Source of the DNA: Adhaeribacter aquaticus DSM 16391
Lineage (GTDB): Bacteria; Bacteroidota; Bacteroidia; Cytophagales; Hymenobacteraceae
Reading direction: 5' to 3'
Length of the DNA stretch: 64,000 nucleotides
NCBI RefSeq assembly: GCF_000473365.1
Contig: NZ_KI421517.1
Span: 3,180,634 to 3,244,633, forward strand
The position numbers and the translations under genes are program-made. How positions within the stretch are numbered: the first letter of the stretch is position 1; each line of letters begins with the position of its first letter. Below the pieces are notes generated by a model. It did not search any database. It saw only the letters and a program-made list of their open reading frames with translations, and was not told where the DNA came from. Below, piece by piece: positions 16,969-42,618 of the stretch.

Positions 16969-17030
16969 TTAAATCATAAATATTTGTGCAATCGTTTCCG
17001 GTAACGATTGCACAAATATTTATGATTTAA
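16969..17030. repeat. 62-bp palindrome enclosing the LacI operator
   Basis: The arms 16969-16996 and 17003-17030 are perfect 28-base complements around the six-base centre tccggt, which itself contains the palindrome ccgg. The inner 18 bases are the operator core. Sites 2 and 3 lack these long arms, so the extension is specific to the susC1/lacI divergent region. Confidence 0.9.
16991..17008. promoter_or_regulatory. LacI-type operator, site 1 (before first SusC, divergent from lacI)
   Basis: The core atcgtttccggtaacgat is a pseudo-palindrome with CCGG at the dyad, as expected for LacI-family dimers. Near-identical cores occur at 34283-34300 and 42545-42562. It lies about 255 bases upstream of the lacI start, so autoregulation is possible. 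Confidence 0.75.
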
Positions 17031-17033
17031 GAA

Positions 17034-17064
17034 TTTTATTTGTATATAAAAGTAATTAGACTTG
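17034..17064 (+). promoter_or_regulatory. Predicted promoter of the first SusC/SusD operon
   Basis: TTTT at 17034-17037 and TAGACTTG at 17057-17064 are separated by 19 bases, fitting the Bacteroidota TTTG / TAnnTTTG pattern with one mismatch each. The elements keep the same distance from the operator as at the other two sites, aligning without gaps. Confidence 0.5.
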
Positions 17065-17381
17065 AATTAGGTTTATAATATATTATAAGCTAACGAACTA
17101 AATATACACCACAACTAATTAAATAACTTGCAATGCTTATGACAAAGGTCTACTCCGAATCCTGATTGTTTTCATATAAAGCTTCTCTATTTACCTGATT
17201 TTTTTAGGCTAAATTTTTTCCGCTTACCAGGTTAATTAACCTGTCCTGGTTTCCTTTATTCTTTTTGTAAAGCCACCAGACAATTAAAGTTATAAGGAGT
17301 GTCTTCAGATCTCTTATAACACATATAAAAAGCGCTGAAAAAATACCAAAATATTATTCAATCATTTTTATAAAGGATTCA
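17065..17381 (+). other. Predicted ~310-nt 5' leader of the first SusC gene
   Basis: No gene is seen. A 16-bp perfect palindrome lies at 17228-17243 (caggttaattaacctg). An overlapping alternative stem pairs accagg (17226-17231) with cctggt (17245-17250), and a later 8-bp stem pairs 17290-17297 with 17313-17320. The overlapping alternatives could be an attenuator or sRNA target, but this is inference. Confidence 0.35.
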
Positions 17382-20300
17382 ATGCAAAGTACAATTAACA
17401 AGAATATGAAGTACTTACTGATACTTCCGCTGGTTCTCATGGCCCTGATAGGTGCTTTGGCACAAGGAATAAAAGTAGGCGGTAAAGTACTGGACGAAAA
17501 AGGAGCAGGCATGCCTGGAGTAACCGTGCTGGTAAAAGGAACTACCAATGGTACTTCCACGGATGTAGGGGGTAACTTTACCTTAACGGCGCCGAATGCT
17601 TCCAGTGTTTTAGTGGTTTCTTTTATTGGTTACTTAACCAAAGAAGTTCCTTTAAGCAACCGGACTAATTTTACTATTGGCCTGGTTCCGGATCAGCAGG
17701 CATTAGAGGAAGTAGTCGTAATCGGGTATCAGGCGGTTCCCAGAAGTCAATTAACCAGCTCGGTATCTTCAGTTGGCGATAAACAATTAAAAGATATACC
17801 GGTAAGTACTGCTGGTGAAGCCCTTGCTGGCCGGTTAGCCGGGGTGCAGGTTACCACTTCCGAAGGACAGCCAGGAGCAGAAATCTCAATTCGGGTAAGA
17901 GGCGGAACCTCTATAACCGGCAGTAATACGCCTCTTTATATAGTAGATGGTATTCAGGTAGATAATGCGCTTTCTTTTCTGACGCCACAGGAAATCCAAT
18001 CCATTGATGTATTAAAAGATGCAGCCTCTACGGCAATTTATGGAGCCAGAGGTGCCAATGGGGTAGTTGTAATAACTACAAAAGGTGGCAGGGAGATGAA
18101 AACTCAGGTTACTTATAATGGGTTTACCGGGGTTAGGAAAATAACAAACGAACTGGAGGTCATGAATCCCTATGATTTCGTGAAATACCAGTACCAGGTT
18201 TATAATTTGAACCAGAATGAAGAATCCCGGAATAGTTTTTTAGACCGTTATGGTCGCTATGAAGATTTAGACTTGTACAGAAATATGCCAGCTACAAACT
18301 GGCAGCAAAAGGTATTTGGGCGCAGTGCTAAAAGCCAGACGCATATTATTGGTATAACCGGAGGCACTAAAACTACTTCATTTAACTTTAATTTAAACCG
18401 GGTGAATGAAGAGGGAATTATGTTGAACTCCGGATTTGAACGCACTTTAGCTTCTTTTAAGTTTGACCACAAAATCAATGACCGGTTTAAAATAGGCTTA
18501 ACCAACCGGTTTAGCCGGCAAAAAATTGAAGGGGTTGGTACTTCCAGCTCAGGTACACAGGGAACCAACAGGTTAAGAAATTCGGTTCGTTTCCGCCCAT
18601 TTGTAGCTCCGGGGCTGGAAAATCAGGTAGATGAGTTTGATCCGAATTATTTTGCCCTGACCAACCTGACCAGCCCGGTATTATTAGCTAACCAGGAACT
18701 GCGCTATGATTACCGGAATGATATAATTGTAAACGGCTGGGCAAGTTATGAATTATTAAATGGACTTACTTTAAAAACCCAGCTTGGCGTTACCAATACC
18801 ACCCGAGACCAGGATACTTTTAACGGAGCAGTAACGGCCATTGCGCGGCAGAATAATGGGCAGCCTGTTGTGCAGCAAATAGGGGCGCAATCACTTTCTT
18901 TAACTAATTCCAATACGCTTACCTATACTAAAAAATTTGGCAAAAGCCATGCGGTTAACTTCCTGTTGGGCCAGGAAATCTGGCAAACCAATGCTAAATC
19001 CAGAAATATTACGACTAAGTGGTTACCCATAGATATTACGCCGGAACAAGCCTTTACTGGTATACAACAGGCAACACCGCCACCTACCTTAATTCAGGAT
19101 GCCCCAACTACGGGTGCTTCCGGTGAACGTTTACTTTCTTTTTTCAGCAGTGTTAATTATAGCTTGTTTGAGAAATACCGGGCTACCATAAGCGTAAGAC
19201 GCGATGCCTCTTCCTTGTTTGCGCCCGAAAATAGAATTGGTTATTTCCCATCTGTGGCCCTGGCCTGGCATGTATCTGACGAGTCTTTTATGGCAGGTAC
19301 CAAAGCCTGGTTATCGGACATGAAAGTAAGGGCCAGTTTAGGTGCGGTTGGCAATAACCGGATTGGCTTGGATTTATGGAAGACCATGTTTGCCTCTTCT
19401 TCCAATGATGGATATGCTTTTACAGAAGCTATAACACCAGGCTATACCGCTACATACCTGGCTAACCGGAATTTAAAATGGGAAACTACTATTTCGCGCA
19501 ATCTAGGGTTAGATATGTCTTTCCTGAATAACCGGCTAACCGCTAGTGTAGATGTTTATAAAAATTCAACTAACGATCTTTTACTCCGGGCTTCCATTCC
19601 TTCTACCAGTGGGTACCAGTTTCAGCAGCAAAATGTAGGCAGCACCGAAAATAAGGGTGTGGAGTTACAATTGGGCGGTATGGTGATGGAAAAAGGTGAT
19701 TTTAACTGGAATGCGAATTTTAACATTGCCTTTAACAGAAACAAAATAGTGAGTTTAGGTAAGGCCAGTAACGGGCAGGCGCTAAACTCTTATGCAGTGC
19801 CATCTGGCTGGATTACGGCCACTTATGAAGATTTCTTAGTTCAGGTGGGGCAACCGGTGGGGCAGTTTTATGGATACCTCACAGATGGGTATTATGCAGT
19901 TGAAGATTTTGAGTTAAACAACGATGGCAGTTTTAAAATGCAAGCAAATGGTAGCTATACGTTAAAAGAGGGAGTAGCTAACAGCCGGAATATTGCGCTG
20001 GGAAACCGGGATCCGCAGCCAGGCGATCTGAAATTAAAAGATATTACCAATGATGGTAATTCCATGATTAATACGAACGACCGGACCGTGCTAGGCAATG
20101 CGCAACCTAAATTTATTGGAGGTTTAAACCAACAATTCGCTTATAAAGGGTTCGATTTAAGCTTATTTATGAATTTCTCAGTTGGCAATAAAGTCTATAA
20201 TGCCAATAAAATAGAATTTACTACCCTGTACGAGCAGAAAGATAACAACATGCTGGCCCTGATGAACGACCGGTGGAAATGGTATGATGAGAATGGTGCC

Positions 20301-20660
20301 AGAGTAACCAATCCGGAACAACTGGCCCAAATGAACAAAGATACCCGATACTGGACTCCAGCCCGCGGCCAATACTTCCTGCATTCTTTTGCTATCGAAG
20401 ACGGCTCTTTCTTACGCATCAGTAACTTAACCCTGGGCTACTCATTGCCAGAAAACCTGGTGCAAAGAACCAAAGCTTTTTCCAAGGTAAGGGTTTACAC
20501 CACGGTTAATAATTTAATTACCCTGACCGGTTACTCCGGTTATGATCCGGAAGCAAATACCCGCAGAAGTGGCCAGTACGGTGCTCTTACTCCAGGGGTA
20601 GATTATGCGGCTTATCCTAGAAGCCGGTATATTTTGGGAGGGGTAAACATTACATTTTAA
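17382..20660 (+). CDS. SusC/RagA-family TonB-linked outer-membrane transporter (pectin oligosaccharides)
   Basis: The 1092-residue protein has a signal peptide (MKYLLILPLVLMALIGALAQ, from an internal Met 9, an alternative start at 17406). It contains a carboxypeptidase-D-like repeat (VGGKVLDEKGAGMPGVTVLVKGT), the plug domain (RVRGGTSITGSNTPLYIVDG; LKDAASTAIYGARGANGVVVITTK) and a long 22-strand barrel ending VNITF. There is no STN domain, so no FecI/FecR-type signalling is expected. It pairs with the SusD gene six bases downstream and imports oligogalacturonides together with it (inferred from neighbours). Confidence 0.95.
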   Translation: MQSTINKNMKYLLILPLVLMALIGALAQGIKVGGKVLDEKGAGMPGVTVLVKGTTNGTSTDVGGNFTLTAPNASSVLVVSFIGYLTKEVPLSNRTNFTIGLVPDQQALEEVVVIGYQAVPRSQLTSSVSSVGDKQLKDIPVSTAGEALAGRLAGVQVTTSEGQPGAEISIRVRGGTSITGSNTPLYIVDGIQVDNALSFLTPQEIQSIDVLKDAASTAIYGARGANGVVVITTKGGREMKTQVTYNGFTGVRKITNELEVMNPYDFVKYQYQVYNLNQNEESRNSFLDRYGRYEDLDLYRNMPATNWQQKVFGRSAKSQTHIIGITGGTKTTSFNFNLNRVNEEGIMLNSGFERTLASFKFDHKINDRFKIGLTNRFSRQKIEGVGTSSSGTQGTNRLRNSVRFRPFVAPGLENQVDEFDPNYFALTNLTSPVLLANQELRYDYRNDIIVNGWASYELLNGLTLKTQLGVTNTTRDQDTFNGAVTAIARQNNGQPVVQQIGAQSLSLTNSNTLTYTKKFGKSHAVNFLLGQEIWQTNAKSRNITTKWLPIDITPEQAFTGIQQATPPPTLIQDAPTTGASGERLLSFFSSVNYSLFEKYRATISVRRDASSLFAPENRIGYFPSVALAWHVSDESFMAGTKAWLSDMKVRASLGAVGNNRIGLDLWKTMFASSSNDGYAFTEAITPGYTATYLANRNLKWETTISRNLGLDMSFLNNRLTASVDVYKNSTNDLLLRASIPSTSGYQFQQQNVGSTENKGVELQLGGMVMEKGDFNWNANFNIAFNRNKIVSLGKASNGQALNSYAVPSGWITATYEDFLVQVGQPVGQFYGYLTDGYYAVEDFELNNDGSFKMQANGSYTLKEGVANSRNIALGNRDPQPGDLKLKDITNDGNSMINTNDRTVLGNAQPKFIGGLNQQFAYKGFDLSLFMNFSVGNKVYNANKIEFTTLYEQKDNNMLALMNDRWKWYDENGARVTNPEQLAQMNKDTRYWTPARGQYFLHSFAIEDGSFLRISNLTLGYSLPENLVQRTKAFSKVRVYTTVNNLITLTGYSGYDPEANTRRSGQYGALTPGVDYAAYPRSRYILGGVNITF

Positions 20661-20666
20661 GTTTTA

Positions 20667-22514
20667 ATGAAGATCAGCATGAAAAATAAATTTATAAAGC
20701 CTCTTGTATTTTCTTTAGTTTTCGGAGGTTTGCTTACCTTCTCTTCCTGTAAAGATTATTTAGATGTAGAAAACCCATCTACCTTATCGCAGGATGCAAT
20801 TTTCGCCAGCCTTTCTTATACGACCTCTGCTCTAACCGGGGTTTATAATCAATTACCTGGTGATAATGGTTACGGGAGCCGGATTTCTACGCTTTTTCCC
20901 AATGCTGCCGATGATTTTCGGATAAGCGGAGACCATAACCCAACTACCCGTACGGGTATAGCCCATTTTGGGGCCAGTGCCGGAAATACCGAATTAAACC
21001 TACCCTTTTTGCAGCTTTATGCCGGGGTAGAACGCGCTAACATCTGCATAAAAAATATTCCGCAATCTAATTTATACAAAAATGGAAGTGCTTCTGAACA
21101 GGCTGCCATGCGTAAAATGTTAGGGGAGGCGCTTACGCTTCGGGCACAGTTTTACCACGAGTTAATCCGCAACTGGGGCGATGTACCGGCTCAGTTTGAA
21201 CCATCATCAGAAGTTCCGGATTTGTATTTGCCTAAAACCGATCAGGACGAAATTTATGACAAATTATTAGCTGATTTGAAAATGGCCTCTGACCTGGTAC
21301 CCTGGCGTTCCGAATCAGGTGATCCGGCATCGCGGATAAGTAAAGGAGCCGTGAAAGCTTTACGGGCCAGAATAGCCTTAGCCAGAGGCGGCTATGCTTT
21401 GCGGCGGTCCAGCGGCAAAGTAGAGCGCAGGAGCAATTACCAGGAGTTTTACCAGATTGCCCGGGATGAGTGCAAACAAATTATCCAGAGCGGACAGCAT
21501 GGTTTGAACCCAAGCTTTGAGAATGTTTTTAAAAGCCTACATGGCGCCAACCGGCAAGACCCGACAAATGAATTGATTTGGGAAGTAGGCGCTTACGGCG
21601 GGAATGCCAGAACAGATACTAAATTGGGATATGCCAACGGACTACGTATAGATGCTGCTAACACCACATACGGCCAGGCAAATGGTTTAATAGAAGCAGT
21701 CCCTACTTATTTCTATGCCTTTGATTCCATTGCTGATTCTAGACGTGATGTTACGCTGGCTTATTTTTCGGTTAATGCTACCAATAACAAATTATTAACA
21801 ACGCCTTTGCTTATGCGCGAAGGTAAATTCCGGAAATACTGGACTACCATTGCCGGAACAAATCAAACATTGGGTATTAACTGGCCAATAATTCGGTATG
21901 CGGATGTGCTGTTGATGTTTGCGGAAGCAGAAAATGAATTAAACGGACCTACCGGGGAAGCCATATCGGCTTTGGAAGCTGTTAGAAAAAGAGCCTTTAT
22001 TGATGAATTGGAAACCCGCATGGGCAGTATTCCAACGAACAAAGACAGTTTTTTTAAGGCAATTGTAAACGAGCGTTACCTGGAATTTGGAGGCGAAGGC
22101 ATTCGGAAATACGATCTAATCCGATGGAATTTGTTAGGAACTAAAATTCAGGAGGTTCGAAATGCCATGCGGGCCATGCGGGAAGGTACAGGCCGCTTTG
22201 CCAATATACCGGCAACTGTTTATTACAAGCCAAGCCCATTATTAGGGCGCACGGTTGGGACCCGGGATGAAGTAGCCAATTTTGATTTGTTTGGCGGCGC
22301 CATAAATAAGGTAATGTACCAGCCAGCTACGGTTACAACTGCCCCGGCAGGCTATACGGCTGTGGCCTGGCGGACTGCCATTACGGAAGAGCATGTTACT
22401 GGTGCTAACCGAAAATTTGCAAGCCAATATATCCCCAACAAATCAGAGTTGTTTCCCATTTTCGAAGGGATTCTTAGCGCGAATTATCGCCTAACCCAGG
22501 ATTTCGGCCACTAA
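20667..22514 (+). CDS. SusD/RagB-family surface glycan-binding lipoprotein
   Basis: The 615-residue lipoprotein has a lipobox at LLTFSSC followed by KDYLDVENPS, the canonical SusD beginning. A second Met (20679) is an alternative start. TPR-type helices follow (FLQLYAGVERANICIKN, EALTLRAQFYHELIRNWGDVP) and the C-terminal RagB region (NWPIIRYADVLLMFAEAENEL, NERYLEFGGEGIRKYDLIRW). It forms the lid of the SusC channel encoded just upstream. It is longer than typical (~550) because of an extended C-terminal region after residue 500. Confidence 0.94.
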   Translation: MKISMKNKFIKPLVFSLVFGGLLTFSSCKDYLDVENPSTLSQDAIFASLSYTTSALTGVYNQLPGDNGYGSRISTLFPNAADDFRISGDHNPTTRTGIAHFGASAGNTELNLPFLQLYAGVERANICIKNIPQSNLYKNGSASEQAAMRKMLGEALTLRAQFYHELIRNWGDVPAQFEPSSEVPDLYLPKTDQDEIYDKLLADLKMASDLVPWRSESGDPASRISKGAVKALRARIALARGGYALRRSSGKVERRSNYQEFYQIARDECKQIIQSGQHGLNPSFENVFKSLHGANRQDPTNELIWEVGAYGGNARTDTKLGYANGLRIDAANTTYGQANGLIEAVPTYFYAFDSIADSRRDVTLAYFSVNATNNKLLTTPLLMREGKFRKYWTTIAGTNQTLGINWPIIRYADVLLMFAEAENELNGPTGEAISALEAVRKRAFIDELETRMGSIPTNKDSFFKAIVNERYLEFGGEGIRKYDLIRWNLLGTKIQEVRNAMRAMREGTGRFANIPATVYYKPSPLLGRTVGTRDEVANFDLFGGAINKVMYQPATVTTAPAGYTAVAWRTAITEEHVTGANRKFASQYIPNKSELFPIFEGILSANYRLTQDFGH

Positions 22515-22543
22515 TCATCCACAAGAATTAGATTGAATATAAT

Positions 22544-24139
22544 ATGAAAAAAGATAATATCCAGGTGCTAAAGTGGTTTATGTCACTTCTTCTGTTCCTG
22601 ATTTTTACTTCCTGTAAAGAAGAATTGGAGGAACAGACTTTTACACCGGAAAGGTTATTTATGCCTACCGGTGCCGTAAAATCAACGGGAGCGGTAACAG
22701 CCGTAAAACTTAGCTGGAAAGAAGCCTTGTATGTAGATACCACTAAAACTTCTTATACCATTGAAGTAGCTACTGATACGCTTTTTCAAAGTAAAGTAGT
22801 TTATACTACCACTTCTGAAACGGCTAGTGTAACCATTACCGATGAACACCTGAATGTTCGGCAACGCTATTATGCCCGGGTAAAAACCAATGCTACTGAC
22901 AAGAGTGCTGAATCCAAATGGGTGGTAAGTTCCCGGTTTGCCATTCCGGGTGAACAAATTTTTACCGCTATCCGGACTATTGATCGGGCAGCGGCTATTA
23001 ACTGGAAAGCAACCGAGGGTGTAACCAAATTAATAATTACCCGAGCCGGGGGAGATCAATTGGTAGAAATACCTTTAACAGCGGCTGATGTTGCGGCCAA
23101 TAGTAAAACAGTAGAAAATTTATTACCCAATACAGCTTACGCCGTTGAGATATTCGCTGGTACTAAATCAAAAGGATACCAGAGTTTCCGGACCAATGCC
23201 CCGTTAGCCGGTGACCTGATTGATTTAAGAGGCGTAACCAACAAAGCAACCTTATTGGCCGATACCATTCCAGATATTCCAAATGGCAGCATTATTATTC
23301 TAAAGCGTGGCGTTACCTATACCGTTAATTCTTCTATCAGTATAGGAAAGTCGCTAACCTTTATTAGTGGGGCCGATTTAAATGAACCAAGTCAGGCAAC
23401 TATTTTCTTTACCAACAACTTTAACTTTGAAGCAGGTAGTGTTATTAATAAAATCGAATTTAAAGATGTTACCATGCGGAGCGATAATTATGCTTCCCGG
23501 TATATTTTTAATACCACAAATGGTGCTACCGTAAGCAACTTTATTATTGAAAACTGCCGGGCTGGAATATTCCGGGGCCTGGTGCGGTTGAATGCTACTA
23601 CTCCTACTACCATTGAAAATTTTACCATAACCAACAGTGTACTGGATAGTCTGGCAGGTTATGGGGTACTTACCGTGGATAATGCTGCTTGTAAGGTGAA
23701 CAGCATTATTATTAAAAATTCCACTATTTATAAAGCAGAAAAAATCTTAACCAGTAAATCAAATACGGCCAATATTACGCTGGATAACCTGACGATTAAC
23801 GAAGCAGTGTTGGGGAACAACTACTTTATCGATTACAATGGAGTAGCAGTAACTAATCCGGTAAAAATAACAAACACTATATTCGGAATTGGCAAAAGTA
23901 GTGGGGGTAACCGTGCTGTTAGAGGCTATAGAGGAACCATTACTTTTGATGTAAGTAACAGTTATACTACTTCAGATTTTGCTTTAGCCGCCATAAACCC
24001 TAATCCATTACCAAACACCACAGCCTACGATAAAACCTCCTTTGATTTATTTCAAAAACCAAAAGAAGGAGATTTTACCATTAAAGATGCTGCTTTTGCC
24101 GGAAAAGCAACCGCAGGAGACCTAAGATGGCGGAAATAG
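22544..24139 (+). CDS. Surface lipoprotein with fibronectin-III-like and beta-helix (DUF4957/DUF5123-type) domains
   Basis: The 531-residue lipoprotein has the lipobox LIFTSC near residue 24. Residues about 45-220 form two fibronectin-III-like repeats (VKLSWKEALYVDTTKTSYTIEVATD; YYARVKTNA). The remainder (LIDLRGVTNKATLLADTIPDIPNG onward) is a parallel beta-helix resembling DUF4957/DUF5123 proteins that accompany pectate lyases in Bacteroidota. No catalytic lyase residues are recognisable. A role as surface glycan-binding protein of the SusCD system is likely. Confidence 0.8.
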   Translation: MKKDNIQVLKWFMSLLLFLIFTSCKEELEEQTFTPERLFMPTGAVKSTGAVTAVKLSWKEALYVDTTKTSYTIEVATDTLFQSKVVYTTTSETASVTITDEHLNVRQRYYARVKTNATDKSAESKWVVSSRFAIPGEQIFTAIRTIDRAAAINWKATEGVTKLIITRAGGDQLVEIPLTAADVAANSKTVENLLPNTAYAVEIFAGTKSKGYQSFRTNAPLAGDLIDLRGVTNKATLLADTIPDIPNGSIIILKRGVTYTVNSSISIGKSLTFISGADLNEPSQATIFFTNNFNFEAGSVINKIEFKDVTMRSDNYASRYIFNTTNGATVSNFIIENCRAGIFRGLVRLNATTPTTIENFTITNSVLDSLAGYGVLTVDNAACKVNSIIIKNSTIYKAEKILTSKSNTANITLDNLTINEAVLGNNYFIDYNGVAVTNPVKITNTIFGIGKSSGGNRAVRGYRGTITFDVSNSYTTSDFALAAINPNPLPNTTAYDKTSFDLFQKPKEGDFTIKDAAFAGKATAGDLRWRK

Positions 24140-24142
24140 GAA

Positions 24143-24178
24143 ATTTATGAATGGAGCTTAAAAGCTCCATTCATAAAT
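24143..24178 (+). terminator. 17-bp hairpin between surface lipoprotein and pectate lyase genes
   Basis: The arms 24143-24159 and 24162-24178 are perfect complements with a 2-base gap; a T7 run follows about 14 bases later. It lies directly after the stop at 24139 and could attenuate transcription from SusCD into the downstream enzyme genes. It also argues against an upstream start of the lyase gene at 24151. Confidence 0.6.
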
Positions 24179-24330
24179 GTTATCCGGTCATTTTTTTAGG
24201 CTGGGACAAAATGTTTAGTATGGATTTTAATAACGTCAAAGCTTTTATAAAAAGCCTGCCTGGGAGATACCATAACCGAAAATCAGATAAAAATAATTTT
24301 AGAAGACGGAAGAGTAGAAGGCTAAAAATC

Positions 24331-25794
24331 ATGATAGGTAAAAAAGCTTATAAAGTAAAAGTGTCGGTGTTTTACCTGGTGTTGCAGGTTGTTTTTACTG
24401 CAGCTTGTTCGCAGCAACCAGCTAAAACCAAAACCGATCCTATAGTAGTAGGTCGGGCAATTGCTTTTCCGGGAGCCGAAGGTTTTGGAAAATATACCAA
24501 GGGTGGTCGGGGCGGAAAAGTATTTGTGGTTACTAATTTAAACGATAGCGGCCCGGGTAGTTTGCGCGAAGCCGTAGAAGCCAAAACGCCCCGCATAATT
24601 GTGTTTGCCGTATCGGGTACCATTCACCTGGAGTCGGAGTTAGCCATTCGGGCCAATGTGACAATTGCAGGCCAAACTGCCCCCGGAGACGGTATTTGCC
24701 TGGCCGATTACCCAGTAAAAATAAATGCTGATAATGTTATTATCCGGTATATGCGTTTCCGGATGGGGGACCGACACCAGAATAATGGAATGTTGGCCGG
24801 CAGCGGACATGATGATGCCTTAAGTTCAACTAAAAAGAAAAATATCATAATAGACCATTGTTCTATTAGTTGGAGTACCGACGAAGTATTATCGGTTTAT
24901 GCCGGCGATAGCACCACTTTGCAGTGGAACCTTATGGCCGAACCATTAAATTATTCTTACCATTTTGAGGCAGGGGATAAAGATTTTGAACGGCATGGGT
25001 ATGGTGGCATTTTAGGCGGGCGGCATATTTCCATCCATCATAATTTATATGCGCACTGCGTGAGCCGTACCCCGCGCTTCGATGGAAACCGTAACATTAG
25101 CCCGGATGTGGAATTTGCTGATTTTCGAAATAATATCATTTATAACTGGGGCAGTAACAATGTGTATGCTGGTGAAGGCGGACAATACAACATTGTGAAC
25201 AATTATTATAAATATGGCCCAGATACGAAGAAAAATGTAAAGAACAGAGTACTGAATCCGTTTCGCGATGTCAAGACTAATGGGTACGGCAAATTTTATG
25301 TAACCGGGAATTATAGCGATGAATCGCCGGAAGTAACTCAGAATAATTGGCTAGGAGTGGTAATGGATAAAGGTACCGCTGCAGATACGACATTAGCCAA
25401 AGCGACTGAACCTTTCGTTGCCGAAAAAATAACGACCCAAGCGGCGCCGGAAGCTTATGCACTTGTGTTGCAACAGGTAGGGGCCAGTTTGCCCAAGCGA
25501 GACCCTCTGGACCAGCGCGTGCTGAATGAAGTAAAAAGCCGCACCGGGAAAATTATAGATGTACAGGGCGGTTTCCCGCACGGTACTCCTTATGCCGAAA
25601 GCCAAAAAGCCTGGCCGGAATTAAAATCAAAAGCAGCTCCTGCCGATTCGGATAAGGATGGGATGCCGGACGCCTGGGAAAAACAAAAAGGCCTGAACCC
25701 GCAGGATGCAAACGATAGCAAAGGGTTCAAGTTGGATAAATTTTACACCAATCTGGAAGTTTACCTAAATAGCATTACCTCTTCATCGCTTTAA
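24331..25794 (+). CDS. PL1-family pectate lyase, lipoprotein
   Basis: Starting at ATG 24331 the protein has 487 residues and a lipoprotein signal (VVFTAACSQQ). The mature start IAFPGAEGFGKYTKGGRGGKVFVVTNLNDSGPGSLR is the hallmark of PL1_2-like Bacteroidota pectate lyases. Calcium/catalytic segments include GHDDALSS, IIIDHCSISWSTDE and the arginine motif CVSRTPRFDGN. The C-terminus has a DSDKDGMPDAWE calcium-binding repeat, often a linker or anchor in secreted enzymes. It cleaves homogalacturonan by beta-elimination, giving unsaturated oligomers for GH105/KduD. Confidence 0.92.
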   Translation: MIGKKAYKVKVSVFYLVLQVVFTAACSQQPAKTKTDPIVVGRAIAFPGAEGFGKYTKGGRGGKVFVVTNLNDSGPGSLREAVEAKTPRIIVFAVSGTIHLESELAIRANVTIAGQTAPGDGICLADYPVKINADNVIIRYMRFRMGDRHQNNGMLAGSGHDDALSSTKKKNIIIDHCSISWSTDEVLSVYAGDSTTLQWNLMAEPLNYSYHFEAGDKDFERHGYGGILGGRHISIHHNLYAHCVSRTPRFDGNRNISPDVEFADFRNNIIYNWGSNNVYAGEGGQYNIVNNYYKYGPDTKKNVKNRVLNPFRDVKTNGYGKFYVTGNYSDESPEVTQNNWLGVVMDKGTAADTTLAKATEPFVAEKITTQAAPEAYALVLQQVGASLPKRDPLDQRVLNEVKSRTGKIIDVQGGFPHGTPYAESQKAWPELKSKAAPADSDKDGMPDAWEKQKGLNPQDANDSKGFKLDKFYTNLEVYLNSITSSSL

Positions 25795-34282: not shown

Positions 34283-34300
34283 AACGTTCCCGGTAACGAT
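34283..34300. promoter_or_regulatory. LacI-type operator, site 2
   Basis: The core aacgttcccggtaacgat differs from site 3 by one base and from site 1 by two, and is followed by the shared tgcataaaaat. It lies upstream of the Gfo/Idh-SusC-SusD cluster. The rest of the 34145-34465 gap shows nothing else. Confidence 0.75.
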
Positions 34301-34325
34301 TGCATAAAAATATCTTCTAAAACCT

Positions 34326-34356
34326 TTTTAAACGATTTTAAATCTGTGTAAGATTA
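34326..34356 (+). promoter_or_regulatory. Predicted promoter of the Gfo/Idh-SusC-SusD operon
   Basis: TTTT at 34326-34329 and TAAGATTA at 34349-34356 occupy exactly the positions of the -33/-7 elements at the other two operators. The -7 is weaker than the TAGACTTG of sites 1 and 3. The motif ctgtgta just upstream is shared with site 3. Confidence 0.4.
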
Positions 34357-34504
34357 ATTCAGAATTGTATTTAGTAGCATTTAGCTATTGAATTTTGAGT
34401 TCATTCGGAAATCAAAAAAGGCTTTAAGGATTGACTTTTTCGGCTGATTAGCTGAAGATTTAATAATGATTAATACCACGCACCACAATAATTTAATCAT
34501 AGTT

Positions 34505-35869
34505 ATGGAAACCGATAAGAATGTAATGGACCGCCGCCACTTTTTGGCTACTACTGGTACTGCTTTGGCAGGTTCTTTATTTATTAATCCAATTTCTTCA
34601 GTAACTGCCAGTGTTACGGCAGGTAAAAAAATGCGGGTAGCCATGGTGGGTACCGGTTCCCGGGGTATTACCATGTGGGGCAAAACGGTAGCTAAAGATT
34701 ATGCTGATCAGGTAGAATTTGTTGGACTTTGTGATGTAAATCCGGGGCGGGTGGCTTATGCTAAAAAGTACATAGGTGTAAATTGCCCTACCTTTACTGA
34801 CTTCACCGAAATGATGAAGAAAACAAAGCCGGAAACCTTAATTGTAACAACCGTTGATGCTACGCACCACGAGTTTATTATAAAAGGCATGGAAATGGGA
34901 GCCAACATCATCACGGAAAAACCCATGACCACCGATGAACAAAAATGCCAGGCTATACTGGATGCCGAAAAAAGAACCGGTAAAAAAGTGACCGTGACAT
35001 TTAACTACCGTTACTCGCCACATCGCCAGAAAATTTATGAGTTACTTCGGAATAATGAAATAGGAAAAATTACTTCCGTTGATTTTCATTGGTACCTGGA
35101 TACTTCGCATGGGGCAGATTACTTCCGGCGTTGGCACCGGTTAAAAGAAAAAGGCGGAACCTTATTTGTTCATAAATCTACGCACCATTTTGATTTGCTA
35201 AACTGGTGGCTGGAGTCTGATCCGGAAGAAGTTTTTGCCTATGGCAATTTAGAGCATTACGGTAAAAATAATTCCTTCCGCCATACCAACTGCCGTCCTT
35301 GCCCGCACAAAGACAAATGTGATTTTTATTACGACATCACCAAAAACCAGCAATACATGGATTTGTACGTGGCTAACGAAAAACACGATGGCTACCTGCG
35401 TGATGGCTGCGTTTGGAAAGAAGATATTAATATTTACGATAAAATGGCTGCCCAGATTAAATACGCCAATGGGGTACAGGTAAGTTATTCCTTAACTACT
35501 TATTCGCCTTACGAAGGCTACCGCATTGCTTTCAACGGTACACAAGGTCGCATTGATGCCTGGATTCAGGAAGCGCAACCCTGGAAAATGGAAGATTATG
35601 ATGAGATTCGTTTAACTAAAATGTTTGGTAAAACCGAACTGATTCAGGTGCCACACGGTGGGGGCGGACACGGTGGAGGTGATATCCGGTTGAAAGATAA
35701 AATCTTCAAAAGCCCGGATATGGCCGATCCATACCGGCAATCAGCCGGGACACGCGATGGAGCCTTGTCCATTCTGGTTGGTATAGCCGCTCGTAATAGT
35801 GTAGAGTCCGGTAAACCTGTAAAAATAGCCGATCTTACCTCTTTAAAACCTTCGGCTATTCGGGTATAA
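34505..35869 (+). CDS. Tat-exported Gfo/Idh/MocA-family oxidoreductase-like protein
   Basis: The ATG at 34505 gives 454 residues; 34466 is an alternative start. The leader DRRHFLATTGTALAGSLF has the twin-arginine pattern of exported, prefolded enzymes. The Rossmann domain has VAMVGTGSRG and ITEKPMTTD; the C-terminal domain contains HKSTHHFDLLNWWL. Between them CRPCPHKDKC (C-x2-C-x5-C, about residues 263-272) looks like a metal or structural cysteine cluster. Relatives include redox-neutral NAD-dependent glycosidases (GH109-like), so a periplasmic NAD-using activity on pectin fragments is possible. The exact reaction is unknown. Confidence 0.85.
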   Translation: METDKNVMDRRHFLATTGTALAGSLFINPISSVTASVTAGKKMRVAMVGTGSRGITMWGKTVAKDYADQVEFVGLCDVNPGRVAYAKKYIGVNCPTFTDFTEMMKKTKPETLIVTTVDATHHEFIIKGMEMGANIITEKPMTTDEQKCQAILDAEKRTGKKVTVTFNYRYSPHRQKIYELLRNNEIGKITSVDFHWYLDTSHGADYFRRWHRLKEKGGTLFVHKSTHHFDLLNWWLESDPEEVFAYGNLEHYGKNNSFRHTNCRPCPHKDKCDFYYDITKNQQYMDLYVANEKHDGYLRDGCVWKEDINIYDKMAAQIKYANGVQVSYSLTTYSPYEGYRIAFNGTQGRIDAWIQEAQPWKMEDYDEIRLTKMFGKTELIQVPHGGGGHGGGDIRLKDKIFKSPDMADPYRQSAGTRDGALSILVGIAARNSVESGKPVKIADLTSLKPSAIRV

Positions 35870-35971
35870 ACAATAAGCTAATTTGTATTTTGAATGTTTA
35901 GGTTACCCTTAGTGTCGGTAGCCTGGATGTGTATTGTCTTTAAGAATCCACTAAAATTAAATCTAAGTAAA

Positions 35972-38900
35972 ATGAAAAAAAAGTTACTCCTATTATGTCT
36001 CTTGTGGGGCTATATAGTGCAGGTCATGGCCCAGGGCCAAAAAGTATCCGGGCAGGTTATAGATGCGGAAACAAATGAATCTTTACCTGGAGTAGTGGTA
36101 CTAGTAAAAGGGACTACTAACGGTACCTCTACGGATGTGGCCGGAAAGTTTTCTCTGAATTTGCCTGCTCCAGGTAATGCGGTGCTGGTTGTTAGCTACG
36201 TGGGGTACCAAACCCAAAGTATACCTGTTGGAAACCAGTCTAATATCAAAGTAAGCTTAAGACCTGATGCCAAAGCTTTGGATGAATTAGTAGTAGTAGG
36301 CTACGGCACTCAGAAAAAAGGTGATGTAACGGTAGCAGTAGCCAGTGTAGAAGGCGAAGCCATTGCCGAAAGAGGTACAGTTAATCCCTTGCAGGCGGTT
36401 CAGGGCCAGGTAGCCGGGGTCGATATTTCAGCCGGATCAGGTAGAGCCGGAAATAATTACAATATTCAGATCCGGGGGCAGAACTCGCTGGCTGGGGGCT
36501 CTCCATTATATGTGGTAGATGGCGTAATTGTGCCGGATATTAATTTCCTGAACCCACAGGATATTTCCAAAATGGATATTTTAAAAGATGCTGCTTCCAC
36601 GGCTATCTACGGTTCCAGAGGATCTAACGGGGTGGTTATTGTTACCACTAAGCAAGGTAGTACGGTAAAGGGCAGCGCTACCATTTCTTATGATGGCTAT
36701 ACTGGTGTGCGGCAAAATGTAAGAATGCCTGATTTTATGAATGGTGATGAATGGTGGCAGTTTCGGCAGAATTCTTATATCGTACCAGAACTAATTGCTG
36801 GCCGCAACCCAACTTCCATTGGTACAGCTGGATCCGATAACCCAGAAATAGCCCGGCGGGTAGCAGAAAAAGATTACACCAATTGGCGGGACCTGGTACT
36901 TAGAACCGGCACGCAAAATAACCATTGGTTAACGGTGTCTGGTACCAGCAGTAATAATATGCAATATGTTATAGGAGCTGGCTATCAGAATGAAAAAGGT
37001 ACTTTAATAAATGAAGATTTCAATCGGTATAACTTTAAAGCCAGTTTAGACCATAAACTAAATGATAAGTGGGCTGCTGGTATGGCCTTTAACTTTGCTT
37101 TATCGGAAATGGAGCGGGGCAGTGATTTAGCCATAACAAATGCTTTTCGGATGCCTCCTTTGTTTAAACCTCGGGATGCTGACGGTAATTTAATTTTTCG
37201 GCCTGGCCAAATTCCGGTGCCTGGTACTTCTGGTGTAACCAGTATTACCAGTTCAGTTAATCCTATACTGGATAACCAAAATTCTGAAAATAACACCCGA
37301 CGCAATTTTGGGGTAGGTAATTTGTACCTGCAGTATTCGCCAGTTTCCTGGATTAGTGTCCGCTCTACTTTTTCTCCCAGAATAACTACAGATAGAAATG
37401 GCCGTTTCTGGGGTTCGCAAACCGAAAACCGTGGTGGGCTGCAACCTGCTGCTGAGTTGCGCAATCAGGAAGCTTTTTCTTATATCCTAGATAACATCGT
37501 TACAGTTAATAAATCTATCAAAGACCACAACCTGACCTTTACTGGTTTACACAGTATTCAGCAGGAACGGTACGAAAGTAATTTTTCCCGGGTAACTAAC
37601 TTACCATTCAATTCTTCCTTCTACAATTTAGGTACAGCCTCCAGCCGGGAGAGAATTGAAAGTGATTTCAGTAAAGTGTCGCTTATTTCTTATATGGGTC
37701 GGGTTAACTATTCTTTCCGCGACCGCTATTTAGTAACTATTGCTACCCGTTGGGATGGTTCTTCTAAGCTGTCGCCTGGCAATAAATGGTCTTCTTTCCC
37801 GTCGGCAGCTATCGCCTGGCGGTTATCTGAAGAAGGCTTCATGAAAGATTTTAATTTTATTTCTGATTTAAAAGTTAGGTTAAGTGCCGGTATTGCTGGT
37901 AATAACAATAACATAAATGCTTATGGAACGCAAATGAACCTAAGCAGCCCAAGTTTTTATGACTTTAACGGGGCACTGGCTTTGGGTTATGCTCCTAACC
38001 GTTTACCTAATCCTAACTTAACCTGGGAACGCACCCGCGAGTACGATTTAGGCTTGGATTATGGATTTTTCTTAGGCCGCGTTTCTGGTTCTGTTGATGT
38101 GTATGATAAACTTTCCCGGGGCGTAATAATGGATCGGGATGTGGCCATGGAAAATGGTTGGGTTTCTATCAAAGACAACGTAGGATCGGTAAGTAACAAG
38201 GGCGTAGAGCTGTCTTTAAGAACGGTGAATGTGGCCACTTCTGATTTTACCTGGTCCACCACTTTTAACTTAGCCCGGAATAAAAATGCCATTGTAGAGC
38301 TTCTGGATAAAAAAGTGGATTTACCTGGAAATGCCTGGTTTATTGGCAAGCCTATTAATGTGAATTATACTTACGTTTTTGATGGCATCTGGCAGGAAAG
38401 TGAAAAAGACGAAGCTCAAAAATACAAGCAGTTACCCGGCCAGGCAAAAGTGAAAGACCTGGATAATAATGGTGTTTTAAATAATGCCGACCGGGCTATT
38501 ATTGGGCAACGTGATCCCAAATGGACCGGAGGTTTTTCTACCCAGGTAACTTACAGAAACTTTGATCTTTCTGCTTCTTTATTTGCCCGGCAAGGCCATC
38601 AGGTGTACAGCCCTTTTCATGCTGAATTTACTAATATGGCGGACCGTGGCCGTAATAAACTGGACATAGATTATTATATGCCAGCCAATAATATTACCCC
38701 TACCCGCATATCCAATTCCTACCCAATGCCGGGCCGCCCTGGTGATTACTGGGCATTAGTAGGTTACTTCCAGGATGTTTCTTTTGTGAAGGTACAAAAC
38801 ATATCTATGGGTTATAATTTACCTAAAGGCTTATTAGAAAGAGCCAAATTGAAAAGTGTGCGTGTTTACGCCAATGTGCTGAATCCTTTTGTATTTACCA

Positions 38901-39037
38901 AATTTACCGGGTTTGATCCGGAAACAGCCAGTGGTATTGATGTTGGAACGCAGGTTACCAATAGTAGCACCGGTTCGCTTAATAATACTGGGGTAAGCAC
39001 AGTTACTTATCAATTAGGAGTAAATCTTAAATTTTAA
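35972..39037 (+). CDS. SusC/RagA-family TonB-linked outer-membrane transporter, second copy
   Basis: Starting at ATG 35972 (MKKKLLLLCLLWGYIVQVMAQ) the protein has 1021 residues; an in-frame ATG at 35894 would bury the signal peptide. Domains are the carboxypeptidase-D-like repeat (VSGQVIDAETNESLPGVVVLVKGT), plug (NIQIRGQNSLAGGSPLYVVDG, LKDAASTAIYGSRGSNGVVIVTT) and the barrel ending GVNLKF. It is a distant paralogue of the first SusC and pairs with the SusD twelve bases downstream, presumably for a different pectic oligomer. Confidence 0.94.
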   Translation: MKKKLLLLCLLWGYIVQVMAQGQKVSGQVIDAETNESLPGVVVLVKGTTNGTSTDVAGKFSLNLPAPGNAVLVVSYVGYQTQSIPVGNQSNIKVSLRPDAKALDELVVVGYGTQKKGDVTVAVASVEGEAIAERGTVNPLQAVQGQVAGVDISAGSGRAGNNYNIQIRGQNSLAGGSPLYVVDGVIVPDINFLNPQDISKMDILKDAASTAIYGSRGSNGVVIVTTKQGSTVKGSATISYDGYTGVRQNVRMPDFMNGDEWWQFRQNSYIVPELIAGRNPTSIGTAGSDNPEIARRVAEKDYTNWRDLVLRTGTQNNHWLTVSGTSSNNMQYVIGAGYQNEKGTLINEDFNRYNFKASLDHKLNDKWAAGMAFNFALSEMERGSDLAITNAFRMPPLFKPRDADGNLIFRPGQIPVPGTSGVTSITSSVNPILDNQNSENNTRRNFGVGNLYLQYSPVSWISVRSTFSPRITTDRNGRFWGSQTENRGGLQPAAELRNQEAFSYILDNIVTVNKSIKDHNLTFTGLHSIQQERYESNFSRVTNLPFNSSFYNLGTASSRERIESDFSKVSLISYMGRVNYSFRDRYLVTIATRWDGSSKLSPGNKWSSFPSAAIAWRLSEEGFMKDFNFISDLKVRLSAGIAGNNNNINAYGTQMNLSSPSFYDFNGALALGYAPNRLPNPNLTWERTREYDLGLDYGFFLGRVSGSVDVYDKLSRGVIMDRDVAMENGWVSIKDNVGSVSNKGVELSLRTVNVATSDFTWSTTFNLARNKNAIVELLDKKVDLPGNAWFIGKPINVNYTYVFDGIWQESEKDEAQKYKQLPGQAKVKDLDNNGVLNNADRAIIGQRDPKWTGGFSTQVTYRNFDLSASLFARQGHQVYSPFHAEFTNMADRGRNKLDIDYYMPANNITPTRISNSYPMPGRPGDYWALVGYFQDVSFVKVQNISMGYNLPKGLLERAKLKSVRVYANVLNPFVFTKFTGFDPETASGIDVGTQVTNSSTGSLNNTGVSTVTYQLGVNLKF

Positions 39038-39048
39038 ATAGATTAAAA

Positions 39049-40716
39049 ATGAAGAAGTTACATATATTAAGTTTACTACTTGTATTGCTGGCTACCATAA
39101 CCAGTTGTAAAGATTACCTGGAAGAGGAAAACCGTTCGAATATAGAATCAGATGTGTATTATGCCACAACTGAGGGCTACGATAAACTGGTAAATGCCTC
39201 TTACGGAACGTTGCGGAATGTGTACAGCGAGCCTTGGCTTTTTGCTGCTGGGACCGATTTATTTGTGGAAGGCCGGGATCCGCAGCCAAAAGGCATCAGC
39301 GAATACCGGGATTTAACTCCGGAAGAAGCCTCCGTGGAAAATTTTTACCGGAATTCTTATGCGGCCATTCAGGTTTGTAATACGGCTTTGTATTTCAATG
39401 ATAAAACTGCGGCTTCATCCAATTTAGCTTTTCGCAAAGGAGAAATTAAATTTTTGAGAGCTTACTATTACTTTCTGCTGGTTCAGAATTTTGGAGGTGT
39501 TGCCTTAGTTACCGATCGGTTTACGCAGCCTCAGGGAAGTTTCAAGCGCAATTCAGCGGAAGAAGTATATAAATTTATACTTGATGAAATGACCGAGGCC
39601 CTAGGGTTAGTACAGGATAATCCTTCTGAATTTGGTCGGATATCCAAAAGAGCCATCCGGCATTACCTGGCAAAAGTACATCTAACCCGGGGTTACGAAC
39701 AATTCGGTAACCGCGAAGATTTTGTAAAAGCAGTTGCTTTTGCCGATGCAGCTATTGCAGGTCAGGCTTTAAATATTTCATTTGAAAACTTGTTTTTCCC
39801 GGGCAACGAAAGAAATGCAGAAGTTTTATTCTCTATTCAGTATGATCCGGCTTCCATTCAAAATCCACAAACCGGGGGCAATAATCAGAATTACTGGTTT
39901 GGCCCCTACATGGGTGGCCAGGGTGCTACGCAAGGTTACCCGCAACGGGCTTACCGCCTGGTGCCTACCATGTATCTGTTCGATACTTTTACCCAGCAGG
40001 ATGCACGGTTTGATGCAACTTTTATGATTGAATACTACAGCCGGTACTACGATTATTATGATAAAAGCAATGAGCGAAATAGCCTTAACGTTAGGTTTTA
40101 CTATGCTCCTAAATGGGCTTCCAGTGCTGCCGATATTGCTGCCTGGAGAGCAGCTAACCCAACACGGCGGAATAATACGCAGGTAATTCCATATTCAGCG
40201 GCTTGGGAAGCTTCTAATAGCACTGCCCTGGATAATGCTACCCCAGCAATAAAAAAGTTTGATGATCCGAAAGCCGTATTTGGTAATCCTACCAGCACCC
40301 GGGATATTTATTTAGCTCGCTTAGGTGAAACGTACCTTATTGCAGCGGAAGCTTATTTTAAAATGGGCGATAATAATAATGCCGCCTTACGCATCAATGA
40401 AGTACGCCGCAGAGCTACCAAGCCAGGTGTAACAGGTGGGATGGCCATTACTCCGGCTGATGTAAACATCAATTTTATTCTGGACGAAAGAGCCCGGGAA
40501 TTAGCTGGTGAGTACCACCGCTGGTTTGATTTAAAGCGGACAGGGACGCTGGTAGAAAGAACCCGCTTGTATAATCGCGATGTTCGAAATTGGTTTAACC
40601 GGGGAATTAATCCTTTTGAAGGTAATGGTGGTGCTCTTAAAATTTTAAGACCCATCCCATCCAGAGCTTTAATCCTGAATGAAGGTGAATTTGAGCAAAA
40701 TCCGGCTTATCGGTAG
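39049..40716 (+). CDS. SusD/RagB-family lipoprotein, second copy
   Basis: The 555-residue lipoprotein has the lipobox ATITSC followed by KDYLEEENRSN. TPR helices (RKGEIKFLRAYYYFLLVQNFGGVALVTD; AKVHLTRGYEQFG) and the RagB C-terminus (YLARLGETYLIAAEAYFKMGD, DERARELAGEYHRWFDLKRTGTL, PIPSRALILNEGEFEQNP) are complete. It is the ligand-binding partner of the SusC directly upstream. The operon ends at the hairpin just downstream. Confidence 0.94.
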   Translation: MKKLHILSLLLVLLATITSCKDYLEEENRSNIESDVYYATTEGYDKLVNASYGTLRNVYSEPWLFAAGTDLFVEGRDPQPKGISEYRDLTPEEASVENFYRNSYAAIQVCNTALYFNDKTAASSNLAFRKGEIKFLRAYYYFLLVQNFGGVALVTDRFTQPQGSFKRNSAEEVYKFILDEMTEALGLVQDNPSEFGRISKRAIRHYLAKVHLTRGYEQFGNREDFVKAVAFADAAIAGQALNISFENLFFPGNERNAEVLFSIQYDPASIQNPQTGGNNQNYWFGPYMGGQGATQGYPQRAYRLVPTMYLFDTFTQQDARFDATFMIEYYSRYYDYYDKSNERNSLNVRFYYAPKWASSAADIAAWRAANPTRRNNTQVIPYSAAWEASNSTALDNATPAIKKFDDPKAVFGNPTSTRDIYLARLGETYLIAAEAYFKMGDNNNAALRINEVRRRATKPGVTGGMAITPADVNINFILDERARELAGEYHRWFDLKRTGTLVERTRLYNRDVRNWFNRGINPFEGNGGALKILRPIPSRALILNEGEFEQNPAYR

Positions 40717-40735
40717 GTTAAGCCATAAGTAAAAA

Positions 40736-40783
40736 ATAAGGTCTTTTACTGGTGTAGTTATAAGCAACAGTAAAAGACCTTAT
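40736..40783 (+). terminator. 16-bp hairpin after the second SusD
   Basis: The arms 40736-40751 and 40768-40783 are perfect complements (ataaggtcttttactg) with a 16-base loop. No T-run follows, so partial read-through into the GH28 gene at 40855 is possible. Confidence 0.65.
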
Positions 40784-40854
40784 CCTTAAATGTAAGGTGG
40801 TAATAGGTAATTATGGTATAAAGGAGGTGAAGGTAAATTAAGAATATTATTAAG

Positions 40855-42312
40855 ATGATAACAAAAATAAAACCAATGGAAAGAAGCTGGCTATTCAGCT
40901 TCTTTTTTATTTGTATAGTATTATTATTTAATTCTTGTACAAAATTTGCTTCAGACGGCATGCGAATTAATGATGCTATTGGGAATACGGATCCTTGGAA
41001 AAACCTGGATAAATTGCTGGAGCAAATTAAACCCCCTGTTTTTATAAAAAAAGATTTCGCCATTACAGCCTATGGCGCTGTTGGCAACGGCTCTGCAGAT
41101 TGTTCGGCGGCCATTAAGAAAGCGATCGAGGCCTGTTCCCAGGCTGGAGGCGGACGCGTGGTAGTGCCAGCAGGGGTTTATTTGACCGGCCCTATTCATC
41201 TAAAAAGTAATGTGAATCTGAATATACAAAAAGGTGCAACCCTTTCTTTTTCTACCAAACCGGACGATTACCTGCCTTTAGTGCATACCCGTTGGGAAGG
41301 TGTGGAGTTGATGGGCTTGTCGCCGTTAATTTATGCTTTTGAACAAAAGAATATAGCCATCACCGGGGAAGGAACATTGGATGGAAGAGCAGATGCCACT
41401 AATTGGTGGCCCTGGAAAGGTCAAAAAAAATATGGTTGGAAAGACGGTATGGCTAGCCAGACAGATGCTGACAAACGGGCCGCTCTGTTTCAGATGGCTG
41501 AAGATAATATTCCCGTTCATCAGCGCAAATTTGGCAAAGAATCTTTCCTGCGGCCGCAGTTTGTACAGCCTTATCGTTGCGAGAATGTGCTTATTGAAGG
41601 GGTGACTATTATTAATTCGCCGATGTGGATTTTAAATCCGGTGCTGTGTAATAATGTTACAATTCAGAAGGTAAGAGTAGAAAGCCAGGGTCCTAACTCA
41701 GATGGTTGTGACCCGGAGTCCTGTAAAAATGTATTAATCAAGGATTGCTTTTTTAATACTGGTGACGACTGCATTGCCATTAAATCAGGCCGGAATGCGG
41801 ATGGCCGCCGAATTAATGTGCCGAGTGAAAATATTATTATTCAGGATTGCACTATGGCTAATGGTCACGGTGGCGTAGTTATCGGGAGTGAAATTTCAGG
41901 GGGTGTTCGGAATGTATTTGCCCAAAATTGCCGGATGGATAGTCCGGAATTAGACCGGGTCTTGCGTATTAAAACCAGTTCGGCTCGGGGAGGTGTAATA
42001 GAGAATATTTACCTGCGCAATATAGAAGTGGGGCAGGTAGCGGAACAAGCTATTATTGCTACCATGTTTTATGAAGATTCAGGCTCGTTTATGCCTACTG
42101 TCCGGAATATAGAGGTGCGAAACATGCAGGTTAAAAATGGCGGCAAAGTAGGTGTTTTATTAGAGGGGTATCAGGAGTCGCCGGTTCAGAATTTACGTTT
42201 AATCAATGTCAGCATGGATCAGGTTAAAGAACCTTACCGGTTTTCTCATGCGAAGAATGTGCATTTTGAGAATGTTAAAATAAATGGGCAAAAGGTAATT
42301 TTACCAGAATAA
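40855..42312 (+). CDS. Polygalacturonase-type GH28, copy 2 (lipoprotein)
   Basis: The 485-residue lipoprotein has the signal FSFFFICIVLLFNSC; the second Met at 40876 is an alternative start. The beta-helix starts ITAYGAVGNGSADCSAAIKKAI. GH28 catalytic elements are N281/D283/D286 (NSDGCDPES), D304/D305 (TGDDCIAIKSG), H338 (NGHGGVVIGSE) and LRIKTSSARGG. It resembles exo-acting Bacteroidota GH28 enzymes that release galacturonate from oligomers. It has no LacI site of its own and probably depends on read-through from the second SusCD operon. Confidence 0.92.
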   Translation: MITKIKPMERSWLFSFFFICIVLLFNSCTKFASDGMRINDAIGNTDPWKNLDKLLEQIKPPVFIKKDFAITAYGAVGNGSADCSAAIKKAIEACSQAGGGRVVVPAGVYLTGPIHLKSNVNLNIQKGATLSFSTKPDDYLPLVHTRWEGVELMGLSPLIYAFEQKNIAITGEGTLDGRADATNWWPWKGQKKYGWKDGMASQTDADKRAALFQMAEDNIPVHQRKFGKESFLRPQFVQPYRCENVLIEGVTIINSPMWILNPVLCNNVTIQKVRVESQGPNSDGCDPESCKNVLIKDCFFNTGDDCIAIKSGRNADGRRINVPSENIIIQDCTMANGHGGVVIGSEISGGVRNVFAQNCRMDSPELDRVLRIKTSSARGGVIENIYLRNIEVGQVAEQAIIATMFYEDSGSFMPTVRNIEVRNMQVKNGGKVGVLLEGYQESPVQNLRLINVSMDQVKEPYRFSHAKNVHFENVKINGQKVILPE

Positions 42313-42379: not shown

Positions 42380-42425
42380 AATCAGCGCCAACCAAATGTA
42401 AATTTTGGTTGGCGCTGATTTTTTT
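42380..42425 (+). terminator. Rho-independent terminator after GH28 copy 2
   Basis: The arms 42380-42396 and 42404-42420 are perfect 17-base complements rich in GC (aatcagcgccaaccaaa), with a 7-base loop and a T-run to 42425. It isolates the uronate-catabolism operon downstream. Confidence 0.9.
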
Positions 42426-42544
42426 ATTGGTATAGGTATCTCAATAGTGGGTATTTATTCTCTTCTTCTAAGACCGGAAAGCTGCTTATTATAATTGGAA
42501 TTTTTAAGGAATAGCTAAGAAAAAATCGGTGAGTTTTTTATTAC

Positions 42545-42562
42545 ATCGTTCCCGGTAACGAT
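42545..42562. promoter_or_regulatory. LacI-type operator, site 3 (before kduD)
   Basis: The core atcgttcccggtaacgat has perfect six-base arms ATCGTT/AACGAT flanking a CCGG-containing centre. It is the most symmetric of the three sites apart from the long palindrome at site 1, and precedes the intracellular uronate genes. Confidence 0.78.
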
Positions 42563-42587
42563 TGCATAAAAATTTCTGGATTAAAGG

Positions 42588-42618
42588 TTTTATACCAATT
42601 TAAAACTGTGTAGACTTG
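42588..42618 (+). promoter_or_regulatory. Predicted promoter of the kduD-uxa operon
   Basis: TTTT (42588-42591), a 19-base spacer and TAGACTTG (42611-42618) match the elements at site 1 position for position. The predicted start near 42625 leaves a ~75-base leader before kduD. Confidence 0.5.

Follow-up and report, generated by a model that had tools for sequence, protein, structure and literature searches.

How might a single LacI-family protein coordinate the capture of pectin with the catabolism of uronates, and would it do so as a repressor or as an activator? The question is raised by a locus in the window (the whole 64,000-nucleotide stretch of DNA that was analysed), in which three gene modules each lie behind a similar operator-like site:

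15695..16735, minus strand: LacI/GalR-family regulator, 346 aa (PF00356, PF00532), the proposed pectin regulator, adjoining site 1
17382..34086, plus strand: module 1, behind site 1, with SusC1, SusD1, a DUF5123/DUF4957 protein, a PelZ-like pectate lyase, two GDSL esterases, two pectinesterases, BD-FAE, GH43 and GH28
34466..42312, plus strand: module 2, behind site 2, with a Gfo/Idh oxidoreductase, SusC2, SusD2 and GH28
42700..53531, plus strand: module 3, behind site 3, with a KduD-like SDR, GH88, tagaturonate reductase (UxaB), altronate dehydratase (UxaA), UxaC, an MFS transporter and an aldehyde dehydrogenase

The hallmarks of a Bacteroidota polysaccharide utilisation locus are present (two SusCD pairs, GH28, pectinesterases, the PelZ-like lyase and GH88), and the genes for catabolism of galacturonate and 2-keto-3-deoxygluconate (KDG), encoding the KduD-like protein, UxaA, UxaB and UxaC, are those behind site 3. 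Each site precedes its module and lacI adjoins the first, as the initial annotation of this DNA had described.

Several assignments within the modules deserve comment. The PelZ-like pectate lyase (547 aa, 24151-25794) has no Pfam match at 1e-5, and matches NCBIfam NF041900 with an E-value of 1.4e-41 and 142.8 bits, far below that model's cut-off of 840. The KduD-like reductase scores 336.2 bits and just misses its model cut-off of 338.85. No kduI lies between kduD and GH88 (42700-43589); several relatives have a predicted frame of 272-276 aa after kduD that may well encode KduI, and the sole PF04962 match in the window genome is about 1 Mb away (G000:C1:4237216-4237791).

Three exact sites in the genome

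The features of the three sites are as follows, with starts predicted from the box search and a Flavobacterium start map:

16969..17030, no strand assigned: 62-bp inverted repeat centred on site 1, with 31-bp arms and one mismatch (from the sequence)
16993..17006, plus strand: operator core of site 1 (core search in window and genome)
17007..17020, plus strand: extension ATTGCACAAATATT of site 1, mirrored on the left too (from the sequence)
17057..17064, plus strand: -7 box TAGACTTG of site 1, predicted start about 17069
34285..34298, plus strand: operator core of site 2 (core search in window and genome)
34299..34312, plus strand: one-sided extension of site 2 (from the sequence)
34349..34356, plus strand: -7 box TAAGATTA of site 2, predicted start about 34361
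42547..42560, plus strand: operator core of site 3 (core search in window and genome)
42561..42574, plus strand: one-sided extension of site 3 (from the sequence)
42611..42618, plus strand: -7 box TAGACTTG of site 3, predicted start about 42623

Within the 5.17-Mb genome, exact CGTTNCCGGNAACG occurs at three places, all inside the window (backwards control, 0), and these are the three sites first named, standing ahead of SusCD1 and the pectinases, Gfo/Idh and SusCD2, and kduD and the uxa genes. At up to two mismatches the core search gives five matches in the window against 1.46 expected, the named three being the only exact ones. Looser matches to the 18-base core are at chance level in the genome, since at up to three mismatches there are 22 rows (six of them the three named sites) and the backwards control yields 35.

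The three 18-base cores, said to agree in at least 16 positions, are identical pairwise at 16, 17 and 17 of 18, and the 55-nt blocks behind them do align without gaps, with 30, 38 and 39 identities of 55. Leaving out the first 11 bases, 21, 29 and 28 of 44 positions are identical, with about 28% expected from local base composition. The landmarks assigned to these blocks are present but lie one base later than given, with TTTT at 26-29 and the -7 box at 49-56, and the description of that box as TAnACTTG-like fails at site 2, which reads TAAGATTA.

Architecture of the operator

The core CGTTNCCGGNAACG is a palindrome centred between C and G, of the kind used by the LacI family, with a left half that is degenerate in some relatives. 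The operator as a whole is one-sided, consisting of the core and WTTGCRYAAAWAAA directed at the target. Flanks were examined for 26 distinct cores, selected by program from 65 core places in nine genomes, the extension being no selection criterion. The extension, counted where at least 8 of 10 bases agree with WTTGCRYAAA, accompanies 21 of the 26, on one side only in 20 and on both sides at site 1 of the window, which the inverted repeat makes two-sided (the sole case among these cores). Five cores lack it; one of these belongs, as its outer unit, to a tandem site of genome G149, and in our reading the other four are chance matches.

The inverted repeat was absent from the initial annotation. 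On the lacI-facing side of site 1, no -7 box is found at the usual distance. A further site, L202 in the set of named genomes described below, also appears two-sided. The tandem site (L113, G149:C1 ~1332841) has three abutting 12-bp LacI-type units followed by the usual extension.

Covariation among sites places pair 3-12 (motif numbering) above shuffles, consistent with a dyad at 7.5; the largest mutual information belongs to pair 5-10, which is non-complementary (alternative dyads, 1.5 and 13.5), and relatedness confounds both signals. The operator may perhaps consist of abutting 12-bp LacI-type units (GNNAWCGWTNNC), usually two and at one site three, with neighbouring dimers or registers sharing DNA.

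Linkage of the operator to lacI orthologues

The regulator exceeds the cut-offs for PF00356 (1.1e-12) and PF00532 (6.9e-24), giving an N-terminal helix-turn-helix and a periplasmic-binding-protein-like sensor, and its top-scoring solved structure by sequence is CcpA. The protein was searched against 59 genomes, its own counted; several LacI-family genes per genome are common among the relatives searched. The operator type stands ahead of the lacI match in all 14 relatives with the closest lacI (48-71% identity), at a distance of 113-142 bp, and is spelled CGATRCCGGYATCG in three of them; the recognition helix is largely invariant when 12 orthologues of 48-71% identity are aligned with the window LacI (13 sequences). 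The lacI match of one relative (L018 in G032) contains two stop codons.

A single regular expression allowing up to two mismatches matches 15 of 15 orthologue-clade loci (the window and 14 relatives), against 0 of 15 loci of LacI paralogues. In named genomes the same expression matches 56 of the best 80 lacI orthologue loci listed, which are 54-73% identical and come from Pedobacter, Mucilaginibacter, Chitinophaga, Niastella and others. At 51 of these best listed 80 (L166 among them repeats L007) the operator is no more than 300 bp upstream of lacI and directed away from that gene, while the remaining matches are 1.1-2.6 kb from lacI or on the other strand. Among the 24 misses, a looser expression recovers the right half and the start of the extension in 12; at the other 12 of these best listed 80, no site is found even by that expression.

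The paralogue loci have palindromes of their own. A scan of the 15 found CpG-centred palindromes near five, PurR-like and near the start of the gene in two, L025 (GCAAACGTTTGC) and L032 (GTAATCGATTGC). The TAnnnTTG box is absent from both of these stretches. An extension of the operator-spacing rule set out below to other LacI subfamilies was dropped, given the 0 of 15 paralogue loci and the boxless L025 and L032.

Target genes in related genomes

A 24-base asymmetric pattern with at most one mismatch is found in 104 of 200 family genomes, with two hits for the backwards control in that table. Twenty stretches from 13 genomes were inspected, 18 of them about 20 kb long and the other two 10.6 and 12 kb, and their sites precede kduD, GH28, SusCD, GDSL/pectinesterase and uxa genes; relative G003, with three sites before SusC2, kduD and a GDSL/pectinesterase group, resembles the window. 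Across 108 non-redundant sites, four of them the window's own, the first frame is kduD in 19, GH28 in 16, PelZ-like in 15, SusC in 11, pectinesterase in 9, GDSL in 8, Gfo/Idh in 4, LacI in 2, and GH88 and MFS in 1 each; 19 first frames have no match in the window cluster and three sites are frameless. A non-LacI protein of the window cluster thus follows 84 of the 108 sites, although SusC and Gfo/Idh are not specific to pectin, and KduD, GH28, a PelZ-like protein, a pectinesterase or GH88 follows 60. The loci were gathered partly via the LacI protein and partly via the motif alone, making the tally a biased census. In the relatives, the genes that follow these sites are mostly those of pectin and uronate use.

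In class-wide samples, a strict pattern (too strict at positions 6 and 10) was found in 8 of 395 genomes and a broader one in 7 of 247. Few genomes of the class, as sampled, therefore have an exact motif match, and we make no claim of presence throughout the phylum. The operator type occurs in Cytophagales and, among the named genomes, in Sphingobacteriaceae and Chitinophagaceae.

Could the sites serve another regulator, with lacI merely adjacent? Many sites in Hymenobacteraceae genomes are far from this lacI, and the extension beyond the LacI-like core could belong to another factor. This explanation is nevertheless highly improbable in view of the operators linked to orthologues in 15 of 15 clade loci and, within 300 bp, in 51 of the best 80 listed, the absence of matches at the paralogue loci, and a CpG-centred palindromic core typical of the LacI family. 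On sequence grounds, the three-site LacI regulon is well supported, because the operators are linked to orthologues, the paralogues are negative and the sites of relatives precede pectin and uronate genes. The regulon joining pectin capture to uronate catabolism that the initial annotation proposed is thus upheld by genome uniqueness, orthologue linkage and conserved targets, with LacI binding to the three operators the predicted element.

Spacing between operator and -7 box

The promoter geometry was recorded in the initial annotation and left uninterpreted there. Of 174 non-redundant pooled sites, 84 have a TAnnnTT box that begins 51 or 52 nt beyond the core (shuffle mean 2.7, maximum 9); about half of the sites fail this strict test. 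A smaller excess occurs one helical turn farther, at 61-63, in 15 of the 174 (shuffle mean 4.0, maximum 9). The linker from operator to box is almost unconserved, at 0.08 bit per base.

In the set of 108 sites examined first, TAnnnT was at offset 51 in 35, at 52 in 23 and at 62 in 10. Shuffling that set 500 times also gave a maximum of 10 at any one offset, so the second peak at 62 is at most suggestive there. When the 58 sites at 51/52 were used to train a matrix, five of the remaining 50 scored above 10 with it, each at 61-62. GH28 genes follow four of the five, and those four promoters may be orthologous.

The spacing recurs in named genomes: 41 of their 55 non-redundant sites have TAnnnTTG at 51/52, and at no offset do shuffles exceed 3 of 55. 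Among the lacI-adjacent sites new to the analysis, from Pedobacter, Chitinophaga and similar loci and with L166 left out, the figure is 37 of 45. The length of the linker is kept although its sequence varies freely, and the spacing is common to promoters of different genes, which makes descent from a single ancestral promoter a poor account of it.

The portion of the Flavobacterium start map used here places the -7 box at -12 to -5 (PMC9723704). With the box so set, the operator is centred at -69.5/-70.5, or at -80.5. The starts predicted in the initial annotation (17070, 34362 and 42625) agree with those obtained here (17069, 34361 and 42623). An upstream site at a fixed, helix-phased distance, as in class I-type activation, is found at 51/52; the evidence at 62 is weaker and may come partly from orthologous promoters.

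Most characterised LacI-family members are repressors, and the protein might likewise be an ordinary steric repressor, with the true promoter elsewhere and the -7 match incidental. A box at 51/52 in 84 of 174 sites, where shuffles reach at most 9, and in 37 of 45 sites of the named set argues against an incidental match and makes this reading very unlikely. The operator also lies so far upstream that a steric block would be unlikely, and a phased spacing would point to contact with polymerase. Its position suggests a class I activator register, unlike that of a blocking repressor.

Activation or repression through polymerase contact

A polymerase-touching LacI could also repress. By this main rival, LacI at -70 would keep RNA polymerase inactive until a uronate signal freed the complex. 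GalR at -60.5 acts in this way on gal P1 (PMC4693257, as far as that source is drawn on here), and fixed, phased spacing suits any polymerase-touching mechanism. Repression from upstream, however, would need an intrinsically good promoter, and a TTTG -33 element is unseen (a weak argument, as detailed next); moreover, column profiles show no second operator downstream. We regard contact repression as rather unlikely.

At -33, TTTG occurs in 3 of 105 sites against 2.1 expected by shuffling, and TTG alone is mildly in excess (13 of 105, against 7.2 +/- 2.6). Genome-wide, TTTG-N17-22-TAnnTTTG shows no excess over the backwards control in the window genome or in G001, G003 and G040. The G046 genome has 574 against 317 backwards, an excess of about 1.8-fold, which may point to a -33 element that differs between lineages. 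The missing -33, which would fit a promoter that depends on an activator, was dropped as proof of activation, the genome-wide control being flat in four of five genomes and TTG mildly in excess.

We prefer activation for the reasons that one operator per promoter suffices, that the A/T-rich extension lies by the promoter and, more weakly, that TTTG at -33 is unseen. In the proposed mechanism, the LacI-family protein (15695-16735) would bind the three operators and so link pectin capture, depolymerisation and uronate catabolism. A LacI dimer centred about 70 bp upstream of the start (about 80 bp in some relatives) would touch RNA polymerase, probably through the alpha C-terminal domain lying over the A/T-rich extension, and the -7 box would be the main feature by which the promoter is recognised. 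The inducer would probably be an intermediate common to both degradation routes, such as KDG, or galacturonate; KDG is a guess, proposed because the lyase and hydrolase routes meet there. We infer activation over contact repression, the polymerase contact and the identity of the inducer from these features, and regulation may work differently from one species to another.

With moderate confidence, we thus consider the regulon to be under a ligand-dependent LacI-family activator that coordinates the homogalacturonan pathway. The chances are about even for the wider proposal of a conserved Bacteroidota LacI-family pectin activator whose asymmetric operator sets direction, at class I positions of -69.5/-70.5 or near -80.5 and possibly built of 12-bp units.

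Comparison with known systems

In Bacteroides, the LacI-family regulators KdgR (BT0487), UxaR (BT0824) and UxuR (BT1434) are predicted for glucuronate/galacturonate use, whereas in B. thetaiotaomicron control of the rhamnogalacturonan/pectin capture loci is attributed to hybrid two-component systems (Ravcheev et al. 2013, PMC3878776, in the parts drawn on here). The system proposed here resembles KdgR, UxaR and UxuR in family, phylum and predicted control of uronate catabolism. It differs in that one LacI-type site type precedes capture and catabolism alike, and in its fixed upstream promoter geometry, which does not figure in the parts of that description drawn on here. The initial annotation had found a single cytosolic regulator linking import and catabolism noteworthy. 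That feature has a precedent in ManR and AraR of B. thetaiotaomicron, each joining SusCD capture to monosaccharide catabolism (PMC3878776, same parts), although these belong to the GntR and NrtR families and serve other sugars; the promoter geometry is the more notable part. A pectin locus of Gramella flava is treated in PMC5306329, and the Vibrio AraC-type xylose regulator with a LacI-like ligand domain (PMC12125979) was set aside as a comparison, each source being drawn on in part.

Upstream action has parallels within the family. E. coli GalR at OE (-60.5) represses gal P1 and activates gal P2 (PMC4693257), and the proposed regulator would share with it a LacI/GalR-family dimer acting upstream by polymerase contact. 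GalR also uses a second operator and a loop, whereas here there is one one-sided operator per promoter, centred at about -70 or -80. CcpA, a LacI-family member, also activates some genes. Cra/FruR, of the same family, does so as well (PMC4052901, in the part drawn on here). Both are global regulators of central metabolism, unlike the pathway regulon proposed here.

In the open-access literature searched, we found no description of such a LacI pectin regulon, of a one-sided operator or of activator-like spacing, and LacI-family action at the unusual promoters of this phylum is little described there. As far as that literature goes, a LacI regulon joining pectin capture and catabolism from three sites, with a one-sided operator and conserved activator-like spacing, is new. 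For Cytophagales, Sphingobacteriales and Chitinophagales, the rule of an operator followed after 51-52 nt by a -7 box predicts targets and starts. With its one-sidedness and helix-phased spacing, such an operator would allow contact between activator and polymerase to be tested directly in Bacteroidota.
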